The translations under genes were made by a program, and so were the position numbers. Below, one piece after another: positions 2,248 through 64,000 of a stretch of 64,000 nucleotides of DNA. Positions within the stretch are counted from its first letter, which is position 1. Each line of letters opens with the position of its first letter. The stretch covers positions 1 to 64,000 of the forward strand of contig NZ_PDWR01000007.1 in NCBI RefSeq assembly GCF_010211755.1. Direction: 5' to 3'. The DNA is from Pseudoxanthomonas sangjuensis. Its GTDB lineage: Bacteria > Pseudomonadota > Gammaproteobacteria > Xanthomonadales > Xanthomonadaceae. Below the pieces are notes generated by a model. The model was not told where the DNA came from. It saw only the letters and a list, made by a program, of their open reading frames with translations, and did not search any database.

Positions 2248-4290
<2,043 letters not shown>

Positions 4291-4352
4291 TGCGCGCAAT
4301 TAGACCACAAAAGCACGGCAGGCGACCGAGATACCCGCCGCGCACGACCGCA

Positions 4353-28794: not shown

Positions 28795-30318
<1,524 letters not shown>

Positions 30319-30361
30319 TCATCGCATACGCGACACCGTGGGGCGCGACGCGCCCCCGCGG

Positions 30362-31408
30362 TTACAGGCGCTGCAGCACCGCCTGCGTCGCCTCGGCGGT
30401 ACCGAGCCTGCCGCCGAGGTCGGCGGTGAACTGCCGATCGTCCAGCGCCTTGCCCACCGCGTCCTCGACCTGCCCGGCTTCGTCGTGCAGGTCGAGCGAA
30501 TGCCGCAGCAGCAGCGCCGCGCTGAGGATCGTCGCGTAGGGATTCGCCACGCCCTTGCCGGCGATGTCCGGCGCCGAGCCGTGGATCGGCTCGTACACGC
30601 CGATGCTGCCGTCGCCGAGCGAGGCCGACGGCAGCAGGCCGAGCGAGCCGGCCAGCATCGAAGCCTCGTCGGTCAGGATGTCGCCGAACATGTTCTCGGT
30701 GACGATCACGTCGTACTCGCGCGGCTTGGCCAGCAGGTGCATCGCCATCGAATCGACCAGCTGGTGCTCCAGCTCCACGCCCGGGAATTCCACGCGGCCG
30801 ATCCGCGCGGCGACGTCGCGCCAAAGCCGCGAGGTTTCCAGCACGTTGGCCTTGTCGACCGAGGTGACGCGGCCCTTGCGCCGTTCCGCGAGGCGGAACG
30901 AACTGCGCACCACGCGCTCGATCTCGGCGACCGAGTACGCGCACAGGTCGCTGGCGGCGGTCGCGGTGCGGGTCTTGTCGCCGAAGTAGATGCCGCCGGT
31001 CAGTTCGCGGACGACGACGATGTCGACGCCCTGCAGCAGTTCGGCCTTGATCGGCGAGGCGCCGAGCGCGGCCGGGTGCGGCCTGACCGGACGCAGGTTG
31101 GCGTACAGGCCCAGGCCCTTGCGCAGCGCGAGCAGGCCCTGTTCCGGGCGAACCTTCGCGTTCGGGTCCGACCACTTCGGCCCGCCGACCGCGCCGAGCA
31201 GCACCGCGTCGGCGCGCTTGCACGCTTCCAGCGTCGCGGCCGGCAGCGGATCGTCGTGGCGGTCGATGGCGATGCCGCCGATGTCGTGTTCGGCGAAGGC
31301 GAACCCGTGGCCGCGGCGCCTGGCGACTTCGTTGAGGACGGCGATCGCGGCAGCGGTGACTTCCGGACCGATGCCGTCGCCGGGCAGTACGACGATGTTG
31401 GCTTGCAT
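30362..31408 (-). CDS. leuB: 3-isopropylmalate dehydrogenase
   Basis: NAD-dependent oxidative decarboxylase of leucine biosynthesis, 348 residues, cytoplasmic. Family blocks include [11 protein letters not shown], the adenine/NAD loop [26 protein letters not shown] and ELTGGIYFG. It is the last gene of the ilvC-to-leuB run, 50 bp after leuD. That gap holds a CCCCTGC-GGAT-GCAGGGG hairpin. Confidence 0.96.
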
Positions 31409-31431
31409 GTGGCTTCCCGTTCTTGCCTCCT

Positions 31432-31451
31432 CCCCTGCGGATGCAGGGGGG
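31432..31451. repeat. Hairpin between leuD and leuB
   Basis: CCCCTGC GGAT GCAGGGG forms a seven-base-pair stem in the 50-bp leuD-leuB gap, followed on the minus strand by pyrimidine-poor sequence without a T-tract. It is more likely an mRNA processing or stability element than a full terminator. Confidence 0.4.
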
Positions 31452-31458
31452 GAGCCGG

Positions 31459-32034
31459 TTATTGGCGTTGTTGTTCGTATTGCGAAATCGCGTCGGCGCG
31501 CGCGAGCAGGTAGCCCAGTTCGTCGACGCCTTCCAGCAGGCAGGTCTGCGAGAAGCTGTCGAGCGGGAACGAATACACGCGGCCATCAGGCGTGCGCAGT
31601 TCGCGCGCGGCCACGTCCACGGTCAGCTCGTCGTCGGGACGCCGCATCAGCGCCTGCACGTCGGCCTCGTCGAGCACGATCGGCAGCAGGCCGTTCTTCA
31701 GCGAGTTGCTGCGGAAGATGTCGGCGATCTCGCTGGACACGATCGCGCGCAGGCCGAGGTCGGTCAGCGCCCACGGCGCGTGCTCGCGCGAGGAACCGCA
31801 ACCGAAGTTGCGGCCGGCGAGCAGGATCGAGCGGCCCCGGTTCTGCGGCTGGTTGAACGGGAAGTCGGGGTTCGGCGAGCCGTCGGCCTGCCAGCGCCAG
31901 TCGTTGAACGCGTTCTTGCCCAGGCCGGCGCGTTCGGTCGTCGACAGGAAGCGCGCGGGGATGATCTGGTCGGTGTCGATGTTGGTCTGCGCCAGCACGA
32001 CGCTCTTCGATTTCAGTTCGCGGAAGCCGCTCAT
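31459..32034 (-). CDS. leuD: 3-isopropylmalate dehydratase small subunit
   Basis: Small subunit (191 residues) of the isomerase converting 2- to 3-isopropylmalate, working with LeuC. The signature [16 protein letters not shown] and [13 protein letters not shown] are present. Its ATG overlaps the stop of a 57-codon ORF (ATGA), which itself overlaps the stop of leuC. LeuD therefore appears translationally coupled to that ORF rather than directly to leuC. Confidence 0.95.
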
Positions 32035-32204
32035 TTAACCTTTCCTTTGGCCTTTTTCTTCTTCGGCGGAACGGATGCCGAACCGCCCTTATTCGCCTGC
32101 ACCTGCGAATGCAGCGGCATGTCGGCGGCGCGGCGCGACAGCGCGCGGGCGATGTCGGACTGGAAGGCCACCGCGGCGGCCGTATCGCTGTGGTGCTGGG
32201 CCAT
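32031..32204 (-). CDS. 57-aa lysine-tailed ORF between leuC and leuD
   Basis: A small protein starting [17 protein letters not shown] and ending with the highly basic tail [12 protein letters not shown]. Its ATG overlaps the leuC stop and its TGA overlaps the leuD ATG, both as ATGA. Such exact placement would be unlikely for a chance frame and implies it is translated with its neighbours. No family is recognised. The middle (IARALSRRAADMPLHSQVQ) looks helical. It might be a small regulator or chaperone for isopropylmalate isomerase, or a coupling peptide; there is no direct evidence for either. Confidence 0.65.
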   Translation of the reverse strand: MAQHHSDTAAAVAFQSDIARALSRRAADMPLHSQVQANKGGSASVPPKKKKAKGKVK

Positions 32205-33622
32205 CACGCCACCGCCTTCTTTCCGGCGAACAACTCGCGCGGATCGCTGACCTTGCCATTGACCGCCGCCCACGCCGCGCTCAGCGGCGAGGCCAGCAGC
32301 GTGCGCGAACCGGGGCCCTGGCGCCCCTCGAAATTGCGGTTGCTGGTGCTGACCGCCAGCTGCCCCGGCGCAACCAGGTCGCCGTTCATCGCGATGCACA
32401 TCGAGCAGCCCGGCTCACGCCATTCGGCGCCGGCTTCGCGGACGATGCGGTCGATGCCCTCGGCCTCGGCCTCGCGCTTGACGATCTCCGAGCCCGGCAC
32501 GACCAGCATGCGCACGTTCGGCGCGACCTTGCGGCCCTTCAGCACCACCGCGACCTCGCGCATGTCGCGCAGGCGGCCGTTGGTGCAGGAGCCGACGAAG
32601 ACCACGTCGACCGGGGTGCCTTCGAGCGGATGCCCCGCGTCGAAATGCATGTAGTCCAGGCCCTTCTTCGCCGCCGCGTCGCTGGCCGCGGGAATCGGCT
32701 CGTCCACCGCGATCGCGGTACCCGGGTGCGTACCCCAGGTCAGGGTCGGGCGGATGTCCTTCGCGTCGATGACGACTTCGGCATCGAACTTCGCGCCATC
32801 GTCCGTGCGCAGCCGCCTCCACCCCGCCACCGCCGCGTCGAAATCCGCCGGCGCGTGCGGGGTGCGGCGGACGTATTCGAAGGGGGTTTCGTCCGGCGCG
32901 CCCATGCCGGCGCGGGCGCCGGCCTCGATCGACATGTTGCACAGGGTCATGCGCTGTTCCATGTCCATCGCGCGGATCGTCGAGCCGCGGTACTCGATGA
33001 CGTGGCCGGTGCCGCCGTTGACGCCGATGGCGCCGATGACGTGCAGGATCACGTCCTTGGCGCCGACGCCCGGGGCCAGCTCGCCTTCGACGGTGATCGA
33101 CATCGATTTCGGCTTGCGTTGCAGCAGGCATTGCGTGGCCAGCACGTGGCCGACCTCGCTGGTGCCGATGCCGAACGCGAGCGAACCGAACGCACCGTGC
33201 GTGCTGGTGTGGCTGTCGCCGCAGACGATGGTCATGCCCGGCCGGGTGAAGCCCTGCTCCGGCGCAATCACGTGGACGATGCCGCGGCCGGCCGAGCCCA
33301 TGTCGAACAGCTCGATGCCGAACTCGGCGCAATTCCGCGCCAGCGTCTCGACCTGCGTCTCCGACGCCTTGGTGTAGTACGGCAGCCGGCCGTCCGGGCC
33401 GGCCGGCAGCGTCGGCGTCGAGTGGTCCATCGTCGCCTTGGTGCGGTCCGGGCGGCGCGGCTTCAGCCCGCGCGCGCGCAGCTCGGCGAAGGCCTGCGGC
33501 GAGGTGACCTCGTGGATCAGGTGCAGGTCGATGTACAGCACCGCCGGGGCGGAGTCGGTTTCGGGGACGACGACGTGGGCGTCCCAGAGTTTGTCGAACA
33601 GGGTGCGTGGGGCGGAAGTCAT
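32204..33622 (-). CDS. leuC: 3-isopropylmalate dehydratase large subunit
   Basis: Aconitase-family catalytic subunit (472 residues) with a 4Fe-4S cluster. Cluster cysteines are seen in [11 protein letters not shown] and REPGCSMC, and the substrate motif [12 protein letters not shown] is present. Together with LeuD it isomerises isopropylmalate in leucine synthesis. The ATG at 33622 begins the conserved [12 protein letters not shown] region. A 149-bp gap separates it from leuA, and its stop overlaps the 57-codon ORF. Confidence 0.96.
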
Positions 33623-33771
33623 GGAAAAGGTCTGGATGGGTGATGGTTTACGTCGCTTCCCGCGCTTGCGGGGGAAGGCCGGGACGGGGACAGGCGGGGA
33701 CGATGGTTTCCATCGCCGGCCACGCACCCCCAACCCCTGCCCTCCCCGCGGAACGGAGGAGGGAGCGGAAG
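33623..33771. repeat. leuA-leuC intergenic hairpin region
   Basis: A 149-bp non-coding gap inside the branched-chain operon. It holds CTTCCCGCGCTTGCGGGGGAAG (33656-33677), an inverted repeat of the same general type as the other intergenic elements, and pyrimidine/purine-rich flanks (CCTGCCCTCCCCGC, GGAGGAGGGAGC). No promoter is obvious. It may attenuate or stabilise the leuC-leuD-leuB part of the message. Confidence 0.4.
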
Positions 33772-35339
<1,568 letters not shown>

Positions 35340-35343
<4 letters not shown>

Positions 35344-36473
35344 CAGACGGGTTCCTCGGTTACTGCAGCGGCGCGCGCTTGGCGTTCATTTTCGCGCACG
35401 GCGGGGGTGATGGGGGGAGTGGCGGAAGTCGCGGCATCCGGCGGATTCGCGACGGAGCGCGTAAGTCGGCCCGGCTCCGGTTCCGGCGCGCGCCGGCGCG
35501 GCTTGCGCGGCGCGGCGGGGCGCACCTCGGACAACAGTTGCGCCAGCACGCCGGCATCGATGTTGCCGCCGGAAACCACCGCGCACTTGCGCTTGCCGGC
35601 GACGCGGCGGCCGGCGGCCAGCGCCAGCGCGCCGGCGCCTTCGGCGATCAGGTTTTCCTCCAGCGCCAGCCGCACCAGGGTTTCGCGCAGTTCGGCCTCG
35701 CGCACGATGACCACGTCGTCGAGCAGCGAGGCGCACAGCCGGCGGGTGATGAACCCCGGCACCTTGACCTTGACCCCGTCGGCCAGCGTCGGCGCCGGCG
35801 GGATCGGCGTGGCGTCGCCCTTCAGCGCGCGCGCCATCGCGTCGACACCCTCGACCTGCGCGCCGACCACGCGCACGCCCTGCGACTTCAACGCCAGCGC
35901 GACGCCGGAAGCGAGCCCGCCGCCGCCGATCGGCACGATCACCACGTCCGGCGCATGCGGGGCGATTTCGATGCCGATGGTGCCCTGCCCCGCGATCACG
36001 TCCGGGTCGTCGAACGCGGACAGGAAGCGGTAGCCGTTCTGCGCGGCCAGCTCCTTCGCGAACGCGAACGCCTCGTCGTAGCTGTCGCCGTGCTGGCGCA
36101 CCGCCGCGCCCCAATGGGCGACGCCGGCGACCTTGTTCCGCGGCGCGCCGTGCGGCATCACCGTGATCGCGGGCACGCCGAGCCGGTACGCGGCCCAGGC
36201 CACGCCCTGCGCGTGGTTGCCGGCCGAAGCGCAGATCACCGGGCGGCGGTCGCCGCGCTCGCGCGCGGCCAGCAACGCGTTCAACGCGCCGCGCACCTTG
36301 TACGAGCCGGTGCGCTGCAGGTTTTCCAGCTTCAGCATCGTGCCGAAACGTTCGGCGCGGTGCATCGGCGTCACCGGCAGGTAGCGGCGCAGCCGCGCCT
36401 GCGCGGCCAGCACGTCGGCGACGCCGACGCCTACGTCGCCTTCGACGCTGGAGCTGGCGCGGGAATCAGGCAT
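35340..36473 (-). CDS. ilvA: Threonine dehydratase, short form without regulatory domain
   Basis: PLP enzyme that deaminates threonine to 2-ketobutyrate for isoleucine synthesis. The product has 377 residues. The PLP lysine is in [13 protein letters not shown], and the phosphate loop is IGGGGLASG. About 320 residues cover the catalytic fold, and the tail ([14 protein letters not shown] onward) is low-complexity. The ACT-like domain that makes long IlvA sensitive to isoleucine is missing, as in TdcB-type enzymes. Its place between ilvM and leuA argues for a biosynthetic role, so control probably comes mainly from the operon attenuator. Confidence 0.9.
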
Positions 36474-36545
36474 GGCGGCCGGCGAACGTCCCAGCTGGAA
36501 GAAGACGCCTCCGAACAGCGGATCCGATGGCGGTCCGGGCGGCGA

Positions 36546-36809
36546 TCACGCGACCGCCTCCAGCGTGGCGGTTTCGTCCAGCGGCGTGACCTCGACCGAC
36601 TCGCAGTCGTAGACCTTCTGCATCTGCAGGCGCAGGGTTTCCGCCGGGCGCTGGCCGTCGACGACCAGCTGCAGCCGCCACGGGCCGCCGCTGCCGTCGG
36701 GCCGGCCGCTGATCTCGCACGGGGTGAAGCCGCGGCGCTCGGCCATGCCGATCACGCGCACCAGCGCGCCTTCGGCGGGCTTCAGCACCAGGTCAAGCCG
36801 GTATCGCAT
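36546..36809 (-). CDS. ilvM: Acetolactate synthase small subunit, IlvM type
   Basis: An 87-residue ACT-domain protein (LVRVIGMAERRGFTPCEIS) of IlvM size. It is predicted to activate or regulate the IlvG catalytic subunit. The ATG at 36809 lies 17 bases inside the 3' end of ilvG, so translation is coupled. It is followed by a 72-base gap before ilvA. Confidence 0.85.
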   Translation of the reverse strand: MRYRLDLVLKPAEGALVRVIGMAERRGFTPCEISGRPDGSGGPWRLQLVVDGQRPAETLRLQMQKVYDCESVEVTPLDETATLEAVA

Positions 36810-38517
36810 GGTTCGAGGGCTCCGGGTTCGGTTTGGCCGGGTTGGATTCCAGCATCGAACTGTTGGCGCTGTTCGGCGGCACCAGCGGCCACACGTTCGC
36901 CTTCACGTCGATCGCCACGTGCAGCAGCGCCGGGCCGGGCTGGGCCAGCAGCGCGGCCAGCGCGTCGTCGACCTCGCTGCGCCGCTCGATGCGCCGGGCC
37001 GGGATGCCGAACACCTGCGCCAGCGCGGCGAAGTCGGGGTTGTCGGACAGGTCGATCTCGCTGTAGCGCTCGGCGAAGAACAGCTCCTGCCACTGCCGCA
37101 CCATGCCCAGCGCGTTGTTGTCCAGCAGCACGATCTTCACCGGCATGCGCGTGCGCGCGATCGTCGCCAGCTCCTGCACGTTCATCATGAAGCTGCCGTC
37201 GCCGCTGACCAGGACCACCGTGCGCTCCGGGCAGGCGAACTGCGCGCCCATCGCCGCCGGCAGGCCGAAGCCCATCGTGCCCAGCGCGCCGCTGGTCAGG
37301 TGGTTGCGCGGATGGTCGAACTTGCAATGCTGCGCCACCCACATCTGGTGCTGGCCGACGTCGCAGGCGATGATCGCGTCGTCCGGCGCGACTTCGCTCA
37401 ACCGCTTCAGCAGCGCCGGTGCGTAGATGTCGCCGCCCGGCGCGTCGTAGCGCGCGGCGAAGCGCTCGCGGCGCTGCTGGCAGGTCTGCCGCCAGTCGTC
37501 GCAGGTGGCGCGCGCGCCGCCCAGCGCCCGCAGGCCCGCGGCGACGTCCCCGGGGATCGCGATGTCGGCGGTGCGCAGCTTGGATATCTCGTACGCATCG
37601 GCATCGAGGTGGACGACGCGCGCGAACGGCGCGAACTCGGCCAGCTTGCCGGTGGCGCGGTCGTCGAAGCGCGCGCCGACCACGACCAGCAGGTCGCATT
37701 CCTGCACCGCCATGTTCGCCGCGCGCGTGCCGTGCATGCCGAGCATGCCGAGGAACTGCGGATGGTTGCCGGGCAGCGCGCCCAGCCCGCGCAGGGTCAG
37801 CACGGTCGGGATGCGCGTGGCCTCGACGAACTGGCGGAACGCGTCGACCGCGTCGGCCAGGGCGATGCCGCCGCCGCCGTAGACCACCGGCTTCTCCGCG
37901 CCGGCGATCGCGGCCAGCGCCTCGGCCAGCCTCGCCGCGTCGGGCGCCGGCGGCGCTTCGACCGCGGCGGGGACGTGGTCCGGCAGGTGCGAGGCATCGG
38001 CCATCTGCACGTCCTTCGGCAGGTCGACCAGCACCGGGCCGGGACGGCCTTCGCGGGCGATGCGGAAGGCTTCGCGCAGCACTTCGGGCAGGTCGCCGAC
38101 CTTCCTGACCAGGAAGCTGTGCTTGACGATCGGCATCGTCAGACCGAACACGTCCAGTTCCTGGAACGCGTCGGTGCCCATCAGCGGCGTCGCCACCTGC
38201 CCGGTCAGGCAGACCATCGGCACCGAGTCGAGCATCGCGTCGGCGATGCCGGTGACCAGGTTGGACGCGCCGGGGCCCGAGGTGGCGACGCAGACGCCGA
38301 CCTTGCCGCTGGCGCGCGCGTAGCCGTTCGCCGCCAGCGCCGCGCCCTGCTCGTGGCGGACGAGGATGTGCTTGAGTTTCGAATCCACCAGCGCGTCGTA
38401 GAACGGCATGATGGTGCCGCCGGGATAACCGAACAGCGTGTCCACGCCCTCGGCTTCGAGGGCATGGGCGATCCAGCGGGCGCCATTGCGTGGGGCAGTG
38501 GCGGCGGTTGCGTTCAT
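36793..38517 (-). CDS. ilvG: Acetolactate synthase large subunit
   Basis: ThDP- and FAD-dependent synthase forming acetolactate or acetohydroxybutyrate. The product has 574 residues. The catalytic Glu is in [18 protein letters not shown], the Gly-rich [14 protein letters not shown] is at the N-terminus, and the ThDP motif is [13 protein letters not shown]. The ATG at 38517 overlaps the ilvC stop (ATGA). Together with IlvM it forms the second step of the pathway encoded by this operon. Confidence 0.96.
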
Positions 38518-39536
38518 GCGGCGGCCTGCTTCTCGGAAGGTTGCTCGTCCGTGTCGGGTTGCGAAGCGCCGGCCTGCAGCCACACCATCTTCGCGCGCAG
38601 CTGCTTGCCGACCTGCTCGATCGGGTGGTCGAGGTCGGCCTGCTTGAACTTCTTGTAGTTCGGCAGGCCGGCTTCGTACTCGGCGACCCAGTTCTTGGTG
38701 AAGGTGCCGTCCTGGATGTCGGTCAGCACGTCCTTCATCCGCGCCTTCACCGAGGCATCGATCACGCGCGGGCCGCTGACGTAGTCGCCGTACTGCGCGG
38801 TCTCGGAAACGAACTCGAGCATGCGGGTGATGCCGCCCTCGTAGAACAGGTCGACGATCAGCTTCAGTTCGTGCAGCACTTCGTAGTAGGCGATCTCCGG
38901 CTGGTAGCCGGCCTCGACCAGCGTTTCGAAACCGGCCTGCACCAGCGACGAGGCGCCGCCGCACAGCACCGCCTGCTCGCCGAACAGGTCGGTCTCGGTC
39001 TCCTCCTTGAACGTGGTCTCGATCAGGTTGGCGCGCGCGCCGCCGAGGCCGGCGGCGTAGGCCAGCGCCAGCTCCCTGGCCTTGCCGCTGCGGTCCTGGT
39101 ACACCGCCCAGATGCACGGCACGCCGCGGCCGATCTCGTATTCGCGGCGGACCAGCGCGCCCGGGCCCTTCGGCGCGACGAGGACGACGTCGAGATCGTC
39201 GCGCGGCACGATCATGCCGAAGTGCACGTTCAGGCCATGCGCGAACAGCAGGCACGCGCCCTGCTTCATGTTCGGCGCCAGCACCTCGTTGTACAGCTTC
39301 TTCTGCACCATGTCGGGGGTCAGCACCGCGACCAGGTCGGCGTCCTTCACCGCGTCGGCCGGCGGCTTCACCACGAAACCATCCGCCTGCGCCTTGGCCT
39401 CGGTGGGGCCGCCCGGGCGCAGGCCCACGGTCACGTCGAAACCGGATTCGCGCAGGTTCAGCGCGTGCGCGCGGCCCTGGCTGCCGTAACCGACGATGGC
39501 GATCTTGATGTTGGGAAGATTCTGCTGCTGGGTCAT
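38514..39536 (-). CDS. ilvC: Ketol-acid reductoisomerase
   Basis: NADPH- and Mg-dependent class I enzyme (340 residues) that isomerises and reduces acetohydroxy acids in valine and isoleucine synthesis. The Rossmann motif [19 protein letters not shown] is at the N-terminus, and the metal ligands lie in the knotted C-terminal domain ([25 protein letters not shown]). It is the first enzyme gene of the operon and follows an attenuator. The start is an ATG at 39536. Confidence 0.97.
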
Positions 39537-39596
39537 GGTGCGAAGGTTCCAGTTTCGGAGGGAGGTCGGGGAGTGAGTGGTGTCGGGAAGTCTTCA

Positions 39597-39630
39597 AACA
39601 AAAAACCCCGCGCCTTGCGGTGCGGGGTTT
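39597..39630 (-). terminator. Transcription attenuator of the ilv-leu operon
   Basis: On the minus strand AAACCCCGC and GCGGGGTTTTTTG form a strong hairpin with a U-tract, 61 bases upstream of ilvC and 24 bases after the leader peptide stop. An upstream segment GGTGCGGG (39677-39670) is exactly complementary to CCCGCACC (39626-39619) in the left arm of the terminator, giving a mutually exclusive antiterminator. Confidence 0.88.
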
Positions 39631-39653
39631 CGAGAATCTGGCGTGTTTTGCAG

Positions 39654-39770
39654 TTACGCGCCGGTCCGTCCCGCACCTGTGGGCTTGGTAATAAGGACGA
39701 GTACGAGCGCAAGCGACGCGGCTTCGGCCGCGGTCGGAACGTTCGCGAGTGGCGTGTGGCGTTGCAGCAT
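39654..39770 (-). CDS. ilvL: ilv leader peptide (38 aa) with regulatory Leu/Val/Ile/Thr codons
   Basis: A short ORF starting MLQRHTPLANV with the codon run for Leu-Ala-Leu-Val-Leu-Val-Leu-Ile-Thr (LALVLVLIT, residues 20-28) and stopping with TAA at 39654. It lies between a consensus-like promoter and the attenuator of the ilvC operon. The four amino acids are those that report on branched-chain supply (Thr being the Ile precursor), as in the E. coli ilv leader. A ribosome stalled on the run would leave GGTGCGGG free to form the antiterminator. Its ATG is only about two bases after the predicted transcript start, so it may be read as a leaderless message. Confidence 0.85.
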   Translation of the reverse strand: MLQRHTPLANVPTAAEAASLALVLVLITKPTGAGRTGA

Positions 39771-39778
39771 TAGGGCAA

Positions 39779-39806
39779 ACTAAACCCGCGTCGTCGGCGT
39801 TGTCAA
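39779..39806 (-). promoter_or_regulatory. Predicted sigma70 promoter of the ilv-leu operon
   Basis: On the minus strand the -35 box is a perfect TTGACA (39806-39801). After a 16-base spacer comes TTTAGT (39784-39779), a four-of-six -10 box. The expected transcript start near 39772 would place the leader peptide ATG at the extreme 5' end. Confidence 0.7.
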
Positions 39807-39942
39807 GCGCGTTCCGACGAAATGCGACGAACGTCGGTTGCCGGCGAAATGGTTTCCACTGAAACCGAGAAAACCCCGCAAAATTCCGGCCCTTTCCAGA
39901 CAAGCTGCAATGCGCGGCACGTGCCCGCGCATTCCTCGCCCG

Positions 39943-41781
39943 ATGCCCGAATACCGCTCGAAGACTTCCACCCACGGCCGCAACATGGCCGGCGCCCGCG
40001 CGCTGTGGCGCGCCACCGGCCTCAAGGATGGCGACTTCGGCAAGCCCATCGTCGCCATCGCCAACTCGTTCACCCAGTTCGTGCCCGGCCACGTGCACCT
40101 GAAGGACCTGGGCCAGCTGGTCGCGCGCGAAATCGAGCGCGTCGGCGGCGTCGCCCGCGAGTTCGACACCATCGCCGTCGACGACGGCATCGCGATGGGC
40201 CACGACGGCATGCTGTATTCGCTGCCGAGCCGCGAGCTGATCGCCGACTCGGTGGAATACATGGTCAACGCGCACTGCGCCGACGCGCTGGTGTGCATCT
40301 CCAACTGCGACAAGATCACCCCGGGCATGCTGATGGCCGCGCTGCGGCTGAACATCCCCACCGTGTTCGTTTCCGGCGGGCCGATGGAAGCCGGCAAGAC
40401 CAAACTCGCCGAGCACAACCTCGACCTGATCGACGCGATGGTGATCGCCGCCGACGACAAGGCCCCGGACGAGAAGGTCGCCGAGTTCGAACGCAGCGCC
40501 TGCCCGACCTGCGGTTCGTGCAGCGGCATGTTCACCGCCAACTCGATGAACTGCCTGACCGAGGCGCTGGGCCTGTCGCTGCCGGGCAACGGCACCGTGG
40601 TCGCGACGCACGCCGACCGCGAGCAGCTGTTCCTGCGCGCCGGGCGCACCGCGGTCGAACTGTGCCACCGCTGGTACGGCGCCGGCGACGCGAGCGCGCT
40701 GCCGCGCGGCATCGCGACGTTCGAGGCGTTCGAGAACGCGATGGCGCTGGACATCGCGATGGGCGGCTCGACCAACACGATCCTGCACCTGTTGGCCGCG
40801 GCGCAGGAGGCGGGGGTGCCGTTCACGATGCGCGACATCGACCGCCTGTCGAAGCGCGTGCCGCAGCTGTGCAAGGTCGCGCCGAACACGCCGAAGTACC
40901 ACGTCGAGGACGTGCACCGCGCCGGCGGCGTGGTCGCGATCCTCGGCGAACTGGCGCGCGGCGGCTTGTTGCACACGAACGTGCCGACCGTGCACGCGAA
41001 GACGATGGGCGAGGCCATCGCCAGGTGGGACGCGGCGACGACGACCGACGAAGCGGTCCATGCCTTCTACAAGGCCGGACCGGCCGGCATTCCCACGCAG
41101 GTCGCCTTCAGCCAGTCGACGCGCTGGCCGACGCTGGACCTGGACCGTGGCGAGGGCTGCATCCGCGACGTGGCGCATGCGTATTCGCAGGAAGGCGGGC
41201 TGGCGGTGCTCCACGGCAACATCGCGCTCGACGGCTGCGTGGTGAAGACCGCGGGCGTCGACGAGTCGATCCACGTGTTCGAGGGCCCCGCGCGCGTGTA
41301 CGAGAGCCAGGACGCGGCGGTGCGCGGCATCCTCGGCGACGAAGTGCGGCCCGGCGACGTGGTGGTGATCCGCTACGAGGGCCCGAAGGGCGGACCCGGC
41401 ATGCAGGAGATGCTGTACCCGACGTCGTACCTGAAGTCGAAAGGGCTCGGCAAGCAATGCGCGCTGCTGACCGACGGCCGTTTCTCCGGCGGCACGTCGG
41501 GGCTGTCGATCGGCCATGTCTCGCCGGAGGCGGCCAGCGGCGGCGCGATCGGGCTGGTCCGCGACGGCGACCGCATCCGCATCGACATTCCCAACCGTTC
41601 GATCGACCTGCTGGTCTCCGCCGACGAACTCGCCGCGCGCCGCGCCGCGCAGGACCAGCGCGGCTGGAAGCCGGCGCAGCCGCGCCCGCGCAAGGTCAGC
41701 ACCGCGCTGAAGGCCTACGCGCTGCTCGCGACCAGCGCCGACAAGGGTGCGGTGCGCGACAAGGCGCTGCTGGAAGGCTGA
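39943..41781 (+). CDS. ilvD: Dihydroxy-acid dehydratase
   Basis: Fe-S dehydratase (612 residues) for the third step of valine and isoleucine synthesis. Cluster cysteines occur in [12 protein letters not shown] and in [11 protein letters not shown]. The ATG at 39943 begins the conserved [20 protein letters not shown] sequence. Longer in-frame starts exist but overlap the divergent ilv promoter region. It is divergent from the ilvC operon with 172 bases between the leader ATG and this start, so both could share regulators. Confidence 0.96.
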
Positions 41782-63396: not shown

Positions 63397-64000
63397 TCAA
63401 CCCGCCATGCCGCCGTGGCGCAGCAACGCATCGATCTTCGGCGCCCTGCCGCGGAACGCACGGAAGTTGTCCAGCGCGTCGCGGCTGCCGCCGCGCGACA
63501 GCACTTCGCGGCGAAAACGCGCGCCGGTTTCGGCGACCTGGTCCGGCGCTTCCTCGAACGCCGCATAGGCGTCGGCGCTGAGCACTTCCGCCCACTTGTA
63601 GCTGTAGTAGCCCGCCGCGTAGCCGCCGGCGAAGATGTGGCTGAAGCTCTGCGGGAAGCGGTGCCAGGCCGGCGCGCGGTTCACCGCCACCTCGTCGCGC
63701 ACCTGCTCCAGCAGCGCCATGAAATCGTCGCGCGCCGGGTCGAAGCCGCCCCCGTGCAGCAGCATGTCGAACAGCGCGAACTCCAGCTGGCGCACGGTGA
63801 ACATGCCGCTCTGGAAATTCTTCGCCGCGAGCATGCGGTCGTACAGCGCGCGCGGCAGCGGCTCGCCGGTGTCGACGTGCGCGGTCATCGCCTGCAGGCG
63901 CTCCCATTCCCAGCAGAAGTTCTCCATGAACTGGCTGGGCAGCTCCACCGCGTCCCACTCCACGCCGTTGATGCCGGCCACGCCCAGCTCGCCGACCTGC
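63397..64000 (-). CDS. prlC: Oligopeptidase A-like M3 metallopeptidase, C-terminal part (cut by window edge)
   Basis: The last 200 codons of an M3-family oligopeptidase; the frame is open to base 64000, and the 5' part with the HExxH zinc site lies outside. Visible family blocks are GVEWDAVELPSQFMENFCWE, SHIFAGGYAAGYYSYKWAEV (substrate-binding His and Tyr region) and DALDNFRAFRGRAPKIDALL. It is a cytoplasmic enzyme that degrades oligopeptides and cleaved signal peptides. The assignment to PrlC rather than Dcp rests on the VELPSQFMENF segment. Confidence 0.87.
   Translation of the reverse strand, partial: QVGELGVAGINGVEWDAVELPSQFMENFCWEWERLQAMTAHVDTGEPLPRALYDRMLAAKNFQSGMFTVRQLEFALFDMLLHGGGFDPARDDFMALLEQVRDEVAVNRAPAWHRFPQSFSHIFAGGYAAGYYSYKWAEVLSADAYAAFEEAPDQVAETGARFRREVLSRGGSRDALDNFRAFRGRAPKIDALLRHGGMAG

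Follow-up and report, generated by a model that had tools for sequence, protein, structure and literature searches.

The ilvGMEDA, ilvBN, and leu attenuators of Escherichia coli and Salmonella combine a leader hairpin, an antiterminator, and a terminator. Predicted ilv attenuators have reportedly been described in proteobacteria including Xanthomonas, where Vitreschak et al. (2004) are said to have placed a leader with its hairpins ahead of an operon of the form ilvCGM-tdcB-leuA. We take that Xanthomonas prediction to be, very likely, the same element as the one described here.

In Sinorhizobium meliloti, the trpL attenuator RNA (rnTrpL) starts with the AUG of its leader ORF, according to PMC10117765, and the same arrangement is predicted here; unlike our element, rnTrpL belongs to a tryptophan operon of another bacterial class and has a described trans-acting role. 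The ilvBNC operon of Corynebacterium glutamicum likewise has a branched-chain leader, a terminator, an antiterminator, and an anti-antiterminator, and PMC11857589 discusses this attenuator as leaderless mRNA; unlike ours, it comes from an actinobacterium, has another hairpin geometry, and has ilvB as its first gene. Thus, because leaderless attenuators are known elsewhere, as in S. meliloti trpL, a leaderless start here is not a new principle, and because the type of switch is classical, the element alone is ordinary. According to a survey of regulatory RNAs (PMC3766115), isoleucine/valine attenuator motifs were then absent from Rfam. A literature search limited to openly licensed papers, some available in part, returned no published description of this element.

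The locus and its downstream genes

The window analyzed here is a 64,000-nucleotide stretch of Pseudoxanthomonas sangjuensis DNA, in which a leader region lies on the minus strand between the divergent genes ilvD and ilvC. Like the attenuators of E. coli and Salmonella, whose operons appear among the attenuated ones listed in PMC1183508, it places a branched-chain leader ORF before a branched-chain operon. Unlike them, it is predicted to be leaderless, it is followed first by ilvC (by an ilvD-like or leuA-like gene in some relatives), its stop codon sits in the apical loop of the antiterminator, and the Rfam family Leu_leader does not match it. The genes of the locus are as follows.

39943-41781, plus strand: ilvD, divergent from ilvC
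38514-39536, minus strand: ilvC, ketol-acid reductoisomerase (NF004017, 513.6 bits; TIGR00465, 413.3 bits)
36793-38523, minus strand: ilvG, acetolactate synthase large subunit, start approximate (NF006524, 939.9 bits)
36546-36809, minus strand: ilvM-like small subunit (NF008362, E 5e-9, under the curated cut-off)
35340-36473, minus strand: threonine dehydratase, ilvA/tdcB-like (NF006455, 663.5 bits)
33772-35343, minus strand: leuA (NF002086, 744.7 bits)
32204-33622, minus strand: leuC (TIGR00170, 643.8 bits)
32031-32204, minus strand: small 57-aa ORF, between leuC and leuD (from sequence)
31459-32034, minus strand: leuD (TIGR00171, 200.3 bits)
30362-31408, minus strand: leuB (TIGR00169, 477 bits)

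The original prediction had placed nine genes, down to leuB, under one leader. Nine genes do follow one another on the minus strand, in the order ilvC, ilvG, ilvM-like gene, threonine dehydratase, leuA, leuC, 57-aa ORF, leuD, and leuB; the claim of a single transcript was overstated, since leuA and leuC are 149 bases apart. A scan of 30200-39560 found no promoter-like site and a single terminator-like one. This site is on the plus strand, and shuffled sequences average 5.1 there. Co-transcription of all nine genes is best described as plausible. The 57-aa ORF has a Lys-rich end, and a longer version of it in the same frame has no NCBIfam match. Opposite the leader, on the plus strand, is an ORF of 68 aa (39577-39783) that is probably incidental.

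Conservation of the leader and its predicted start

The elements of the leader region, all on the minus strand, are listed below in the order of transcription; "carriers" and "representatives" are defined in the paragraphs that follow.

39801-39806, minus strand: -35 hexamer TTGACA, perfect in 95/95 carriers, 35-39 nt before the leader ATG (sequence)
39777-39784, minus strand: -10 region, either TTTAGT (16-nt spacer) or TAGTTT (18-nt spacer)
39654-39770, minus strand: ilvL-like leader ORF of 38 codons including the stop, from ATG at 39770 to TAA at 39654
39690-39707, minus strand: control codons Leu22-Val-Leu-Val-Leu-Ile27 (CTC GTA CTC GTC CTT ATT), conserved in 52 representatives
39689-39687, minus strand: Thr28, directly after the control codons
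39666-39700, minus strand: leader hairpin 1:2, pairing the control codons with region 2 (anti-antiterminator; fold)
39670-39677, minus strand: region 2, GGTGCGGG, the 5' arm of the antiterminator and an exact 8-bp complement of 39626-39619
39631-39669 (bounds approximate), minus strand: inner hairpin of the antiterminator, with the stop codon of the leader (39656-39654) inside it
39619-39626, minus strand: region 3, CCCGCACC, within the 5' arm of the terminator
about 39600-39631, minus strand: intrinsic terminator with U-tract, GAAACCCCGCACC-GCAA-GGCGCGGGGTTTTTT (sequence and fold)

The original prediction had named a TTGACA promoter element, a 38-codon ORF with the run LALVLVLIT, a terminator hairpin with a U-tract, and an 8-base antiterminator match. 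The ORF, which reads MLQRHTPLANVPTAAEAASLALVLVLITKPTGAGRTGA, was confirmed, the coordinates of the match are exact, and the hexamer and the hairpin are present where listed; a promoter role for the former and terminator activity for the latter are predicted. It had also counted an absence of conserved leader codons and hairpins among relatives as grounds for abandoning the idea; we looked for such conservation and found it, and this comparison among relatives lends good support to its core reading, in which a ribosome stalling on a leader with a near-leaderless start governs attenuation.

The comparison covered 114 ilvC loci: that of the window itself, 24 from named relatives (taken from the top of a set of 80 loci), and 89 further loci of the same family, in two lots of 29 and 60. 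Some genomes are represented twice in this total. An ILV-rich leader with TTGACA 35-39 nt before its ATG was present in 95/114 upstream regions (92 distinct, three genomes being counted twice), and this fixed criterion, applied alike to real and shuffled regions, was satisfied by 0/5700 block-shuffled regions. When the promoter was dropped from the criterion, the ORF was found in 92/114 real regions vs. 7/2280 shuffled ones. An earlier ORF filter had caught 63/114, compared with the 95/114 of the final filter. All 95 carriers have a terminator-like hairpin 19-37 nt past the stop codon, with a U-tract that is interrupted in some, and 67/95 have an antiterminator score of at least 20, as against 1.2% of shuffles. 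Counts out of 52 refer to representatives with <85% mutual identity. These figures bear on the idea that an ORF with an ILV-rich stretch lies by chance beside an ordinary terminator. What speaks for coincidence is the fold of the leader by itself, which has a z-score of -2.1, with 5/200 shuffles as good, and is weak alone. Given the 0/5700 shuffles set against 95/114 relatives' regions, and the matches of a covariance model across the order (below), we give coincidence practically no credence.

Six of the 19 noncarrier regions (L009, L010, L016, L022, L024, and L158) were recovered by the covariance model, most of them with elements that lie beyond the 800 upstream bases first read. In L022 the order, judged by eye, is leader, ilvD-like gene, ilvC. 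The 13 regions in which no element was found are L011, with 133 bases of upstream sequence, L162 and L164, with ∼800 bases, and, with ∼2.5 kb of flank each, nine regions of Rhodanobacteraceae (family by name; L012-L015, L018-L021, and L023) and one from a gammaproteobacterial MAG (L025). The contig of L164 is as long as the contig of L010, a locus whose leader is farther away. The g17 leaders resemble those of the Xanthomonas loci L007 and L008.

The distance between promoter and start codon is the best available evidence for how the leader is translated. Among the 95 carriers, TTGACA lies 36 nt before the ATG in 50 and 37 nt before it in 33; the quality of the -35 match was one factor in picking the start codon, and this favors the spacing result. 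The -10 alternatives, at 39784-39779 or 39782-39777, are poor, with no TATAAT, and a simple scanner run over 38400-40100 reported neither a promoter nor a terminator. Because of this, the promoter assignment rests on the perfect -35 hexamer and on conservation, which includes a T-rich stretch 19-24 nt past the -35 in the 52 representatives. The scanner's blank result at the leader was not counted as evidence of absence; the terminator stem has an A-C mismatch near its loop, which probably makes it fail the scanner's rule. From the promoter spacing, transcription should start at 39771/39770, and such a start would leave no room for a ribosome-binding site. We therefore infer that the leader is translated without a Shine-Dalgarno sequence; the spacing stays within 35-39 nt in the loci sampled from the family and within 35-38 nt in those sampled from the order.

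An attenuator that is real but transcribed from farther upstream, with its leader translated from a normal ribosome-binding site, would account for the poor -10 that the scanner missed. It would not account for a hexamer that lies 35-39 nt before the ATG in all carriers and leaves no room for a 5' UTR, for a -35 placed 35-38 nt before the ATG in 19/20 loci across the order, or for a T-rich -10 conserved at the matching place. An upstream start is, in our judgment, quite improbable.

Within the leader, the stretch from the start codon to the control run varies in length and sequence, while the ORF and the Leu/Val/Ile run are kept. The six control positions are mainly L-V-L-V-L-I, in 42, 45, 41, 46, 49, and 50 of the 52 representatives, respectively. 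The position after the last Ile is Thr in 41/52 and Ser, Pro, His, or Ala in 11. The original prediction had one leader sensing Leu, Val, Ile, and Thr. The conserved Leu, Val, and Ile codons uphold the first three, whereas Thr, with only 41/52, was overstated: Its partial conservation has another explanation because the bases of Thr28 also pair in the leader hairpin, and Thr as a control residue is unproven from these comparisons.

Codon choice in the run is strongly skewed. The three Leu positions hold 132 Leu codons across the representatives, of which 72 are CTC, 59 are CTT, and none is CTG, the codon that makes up 79.7% of the 291 Leu codons in seven window genes. The control Ile codon is ATT in 48/50, vs. 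2.9% of 140 Ile codons in the same seven genes. This bias must partly reflect RNA pairing because these bases are also part of the leader hairpin. The lack of CTG would, in addition, be compatible with sensing of the tRNA that decodes CTC and CTT, as framed by selective-charging theory. According to PMC1183508, that theory holds that attenuators use the codons whose isoacceptor charging is most sensitive, and it does not call rare codons sensitive as such. Avoidance of the common Leu synonym in these control codons offers a natural test of the theory.

Leader codons 1-7 (39770-39750, MLQRHTP) are conserved, including several third positions, above codons 9-13. The conservation of codons 2-7 (MLQRHTP-like), which the switch does not obviously need, could be read to mean that, like rnTrpL/peTrpL, the short RNA left by termination, or the peptide it encodes, has a further role in trans, with cis attenuation only part of the function; PMC10117765 describes such a trans-acting leaderless attenuator RNA for S. 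meliloti. The same pattern may reflect the context of a leaderless start, common descent, or pairing with the stop-codon region, which is seen in the full fold. We regard an added trans role as unlikely, while giving it some weight, and cis attenuation remains the reading pursued here.

Competing hairpins and the modeled position of the ribosome

The leader RNA can form three competing pairings. Region 2 can pair either with the control codons or with region 3, and region 3 can pair instead with region 4. Regions 2 and 4 compete for region 3, so that the antiterminator excludes the terminator. In the 52 representatives, the two helices of the leader hairpin are paired in 90.7% and 89.8%, regions 2 and 3 in 97.1%, and regions 3 and 4, which form the terminator, in 94.4%. 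The leader hairpin is weaker than the antiterminator (-14.7 vs. -22.7 kcal/mol) and loses to it at equilibrium in the window RNA. The antiterminator match of the window was equaled in 4/5000 shuffles of region 2, and when the stretch from region 2 to region 3 is folded, the helix between the two has at least five pairs in 51/52 representatives.

A feature beyond those of the original prediction is the inner hairpin around the stop codon, which in the same folds has at least four pairs in 50/52 representatives (exceptions, L004 and L165). Its arms fit their own partner better than the median foreign one in 43/52, and the own-partner total was reached by 0/20000 permutations, a test that leaves shared ancestry in and that included the too-short cut-outs of L004 and L123. 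The corresponding comparison for regions 2 and 3 gives similar scores for own and foreign partners (20.7 vs. 20.1) and is uninformative because the sequence hardly varies. Compensatory changes occur in the terminator, where the closing pair changes from C-G to U-A in 11/52, and in the antiterminator, where a U-A pair becomes C-G in 3/52. Alignment A1, in which the 3' arms are partly misaligned, has helix 2 paired in 60.8% of cells and helix 3 in 74.6%. Its doubly changed cells number 22, above all 500 shuffles (mean 13.3), whereas 25 such cells arise when the alignment is slid by two columns, and its pairs changed on both sides do not exceed the shuffles (53/500).

How a stalled ribosome would bear on these pairings was modeled with an assumed footprint that, relative to the first base of the A-site codon, reaches 15 nt upstream and 12 nt downstream. 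With the footprint masked, the window RNA was folded only as far as the terminator loop, so that region 4 was excluded. In this model, regions 2 and 3 pair at 0.98 when the ribosome stalls at Leu22, Leu24, Leu26, or Ile27; the value falls to 0.85 at Thr28 and 0.11 at Lys29, and it is 0 for stalls at codon 31 or 33. The pairing drops past the control codons; thus, the control run ends where a stalled ribosome would begin to cover region 2. Across the representatives, at least five pairs between regions 2 and 3 are expected in 48 of the 52 sequences with the ribosome at the last Ile and in 41 with it two codons earlier, compared with 11 with it at the stop codon and 21 with no ribosome. In the window RNA itself, the model prefers the antiterminator without a ribosome (0.95) and still gives it 0.67 with the ribosome at the stop codon. 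Because the ribosome-free RNA prefers the antiterminator, repression needs either the leader hairpin to form first, a matter of kinetics, or wider masking than assumed. When the entire leader was folded at equilibrium with the ribosome masked, each of the states tried yielded the terminator, and the informative modeling is confined to RNA cut before region 4.

Taken with the comparison among relatives, this modeling points, on purely computational evidence, to ribosome-mediated transcription attenuation with a leaderless leader responding to Leu, Val, and Ile, a reading to which we assign a probability of about 0.9. RNA polymerase would start at, or one base before, the leader ATG, and translation of the leader would do without a Shine-Dalgarno sequence. 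With ample charged Leu-, Val-, and Ile-tRNA, the ribosome would reach the stop codon, open the inner hairpin, and cover part of region 2; region 3 would then pair with region 4, and the terminator would halt transcription ahead of ilvC. Scarcity of any one of these charged tRNAs would stall the ribosome at codons 22-27, breaking the leader hairpin and leaving region 2 free just past the edge of the ribosome. Regions 2 and 3, together with the inner hairpin at the stop codon, could then fold into the antiterminator while region 4 has yet to be synthesized, allowing transcription of the operon.

Terminators and alternative pairings are also common to metabolite riboswitches, T-boxes, and protein-binding leaders, in which case the small ORF would be incidental. 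At gathering score, the only Rfam match in the window is a TPP riboswitch elsewhere, and no family reaches that score at the leader, where the sub-threshold matches include PyrR (19.6 bits) and Leu_leader (RF00512; 17.6 bits against a gathering cut-off of 50). Conservation extends to the ORF and to its Leu/Val/Ile run, with variation in the stretch between the start codon and that run, and the modeled fit to ribosome position is sharp. We consider a leader of these other kinds very improbable and retain ribosome-mediated attenuation. The TPP riboswitch (4198-4295, minus strand, 62.8 bits) lies upstream of an ORF at 2248-4182 that looks thiC-like by eye.

Distribution across the order and a putative asparagine-rich counterpart

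A covariance model, R1, was built from the 52 representatives. It matches 298/395 genomes of the family (E 1e-4), and ilvC is present in 299 of the same 395 (E 1e-60). In a set of 200 genomes of the order, R1 matches 106 (E 0.001), 32 inside the family and 74 outside. Twenty of the 74 outside matches were inspected as loci (L218-L237). In 19 of these, the ATG of a leader is preceded at 35-38 nt by a -35 hexamer, which is TTGACA in 18 and TTGACT in one. The next gene at these 19 loci, judged by eye from its N terminus, is ilvD-like in 11, leuA-like in seven, and not assigned in one. The remaining locus, L231, has TTGACG and a Leu-rich ORF outside the filter, before a leuA-like gene. Sequence comparison indicates that a branched-chain leader precedes an ilvC, ilvD-like, or leuA-like gene in different families of the order. 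Relatives across the order appear leaderless at the attenuator, and if so, attenuation there must work with leaderless initiation.

R1 also has a weak second match in the P. sangjuensis genome (contig C11, 63855-63934, 26.7 bits). The surrounding region has the following layout.

contig C11, about 63783-63934 (locus L173, 1429-1580): asnB-like leader with the ORF MKSFAANVANPNNRNNLRANDRARPVRGRD and a terminator, followed by an asnB-like gene (by eye)

An AsnB search gave a match in 106 of 119 genomes searched, and the 30 loci nearest in AsnB sequence were sampled, with the genome of the window first. With a leader filter of 24-36 codons and at least three Asn, every one of the 30 loci shows a terminator and a leader that is 27-32 codons long and contains 4-10 Asn (mean 6.8), and TTGC lies 35-37 nt ahead of the leader ATG. 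In 27/30, region 2 has a complement with a score of at least 20, vs. 1.8% in shuffles run for this complement. The weak cases are L201 and L207. These features suggest a putative attenuator of the leaderless type, rich in Asn codons, upstream of asnB.

Considering both leaders together, we think it rather likely that Lysobacterales have a conserved class of leaderless attenuators in which one module has been tuned to branched-chain amino acids, moving among ilvC, ilvD-like, and leuA-like genes, and to asparagine at asnB. A literature search at the level of titles turned up no publication about attenuators of this type that act on asnB or respond to asparagine. We know of no description of a ribosome-mediated attenuator with asparagine specificity, and if the reading is true, the version controlling asnB would be one of a specificity without a known description. 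A model of the asnB leader matches 47/250 genomes of the order (E 1e-4), 43 of them in Xanthomonadaceae, with some of its matches being opposite-strand matches to terminators or the ilv element itself.
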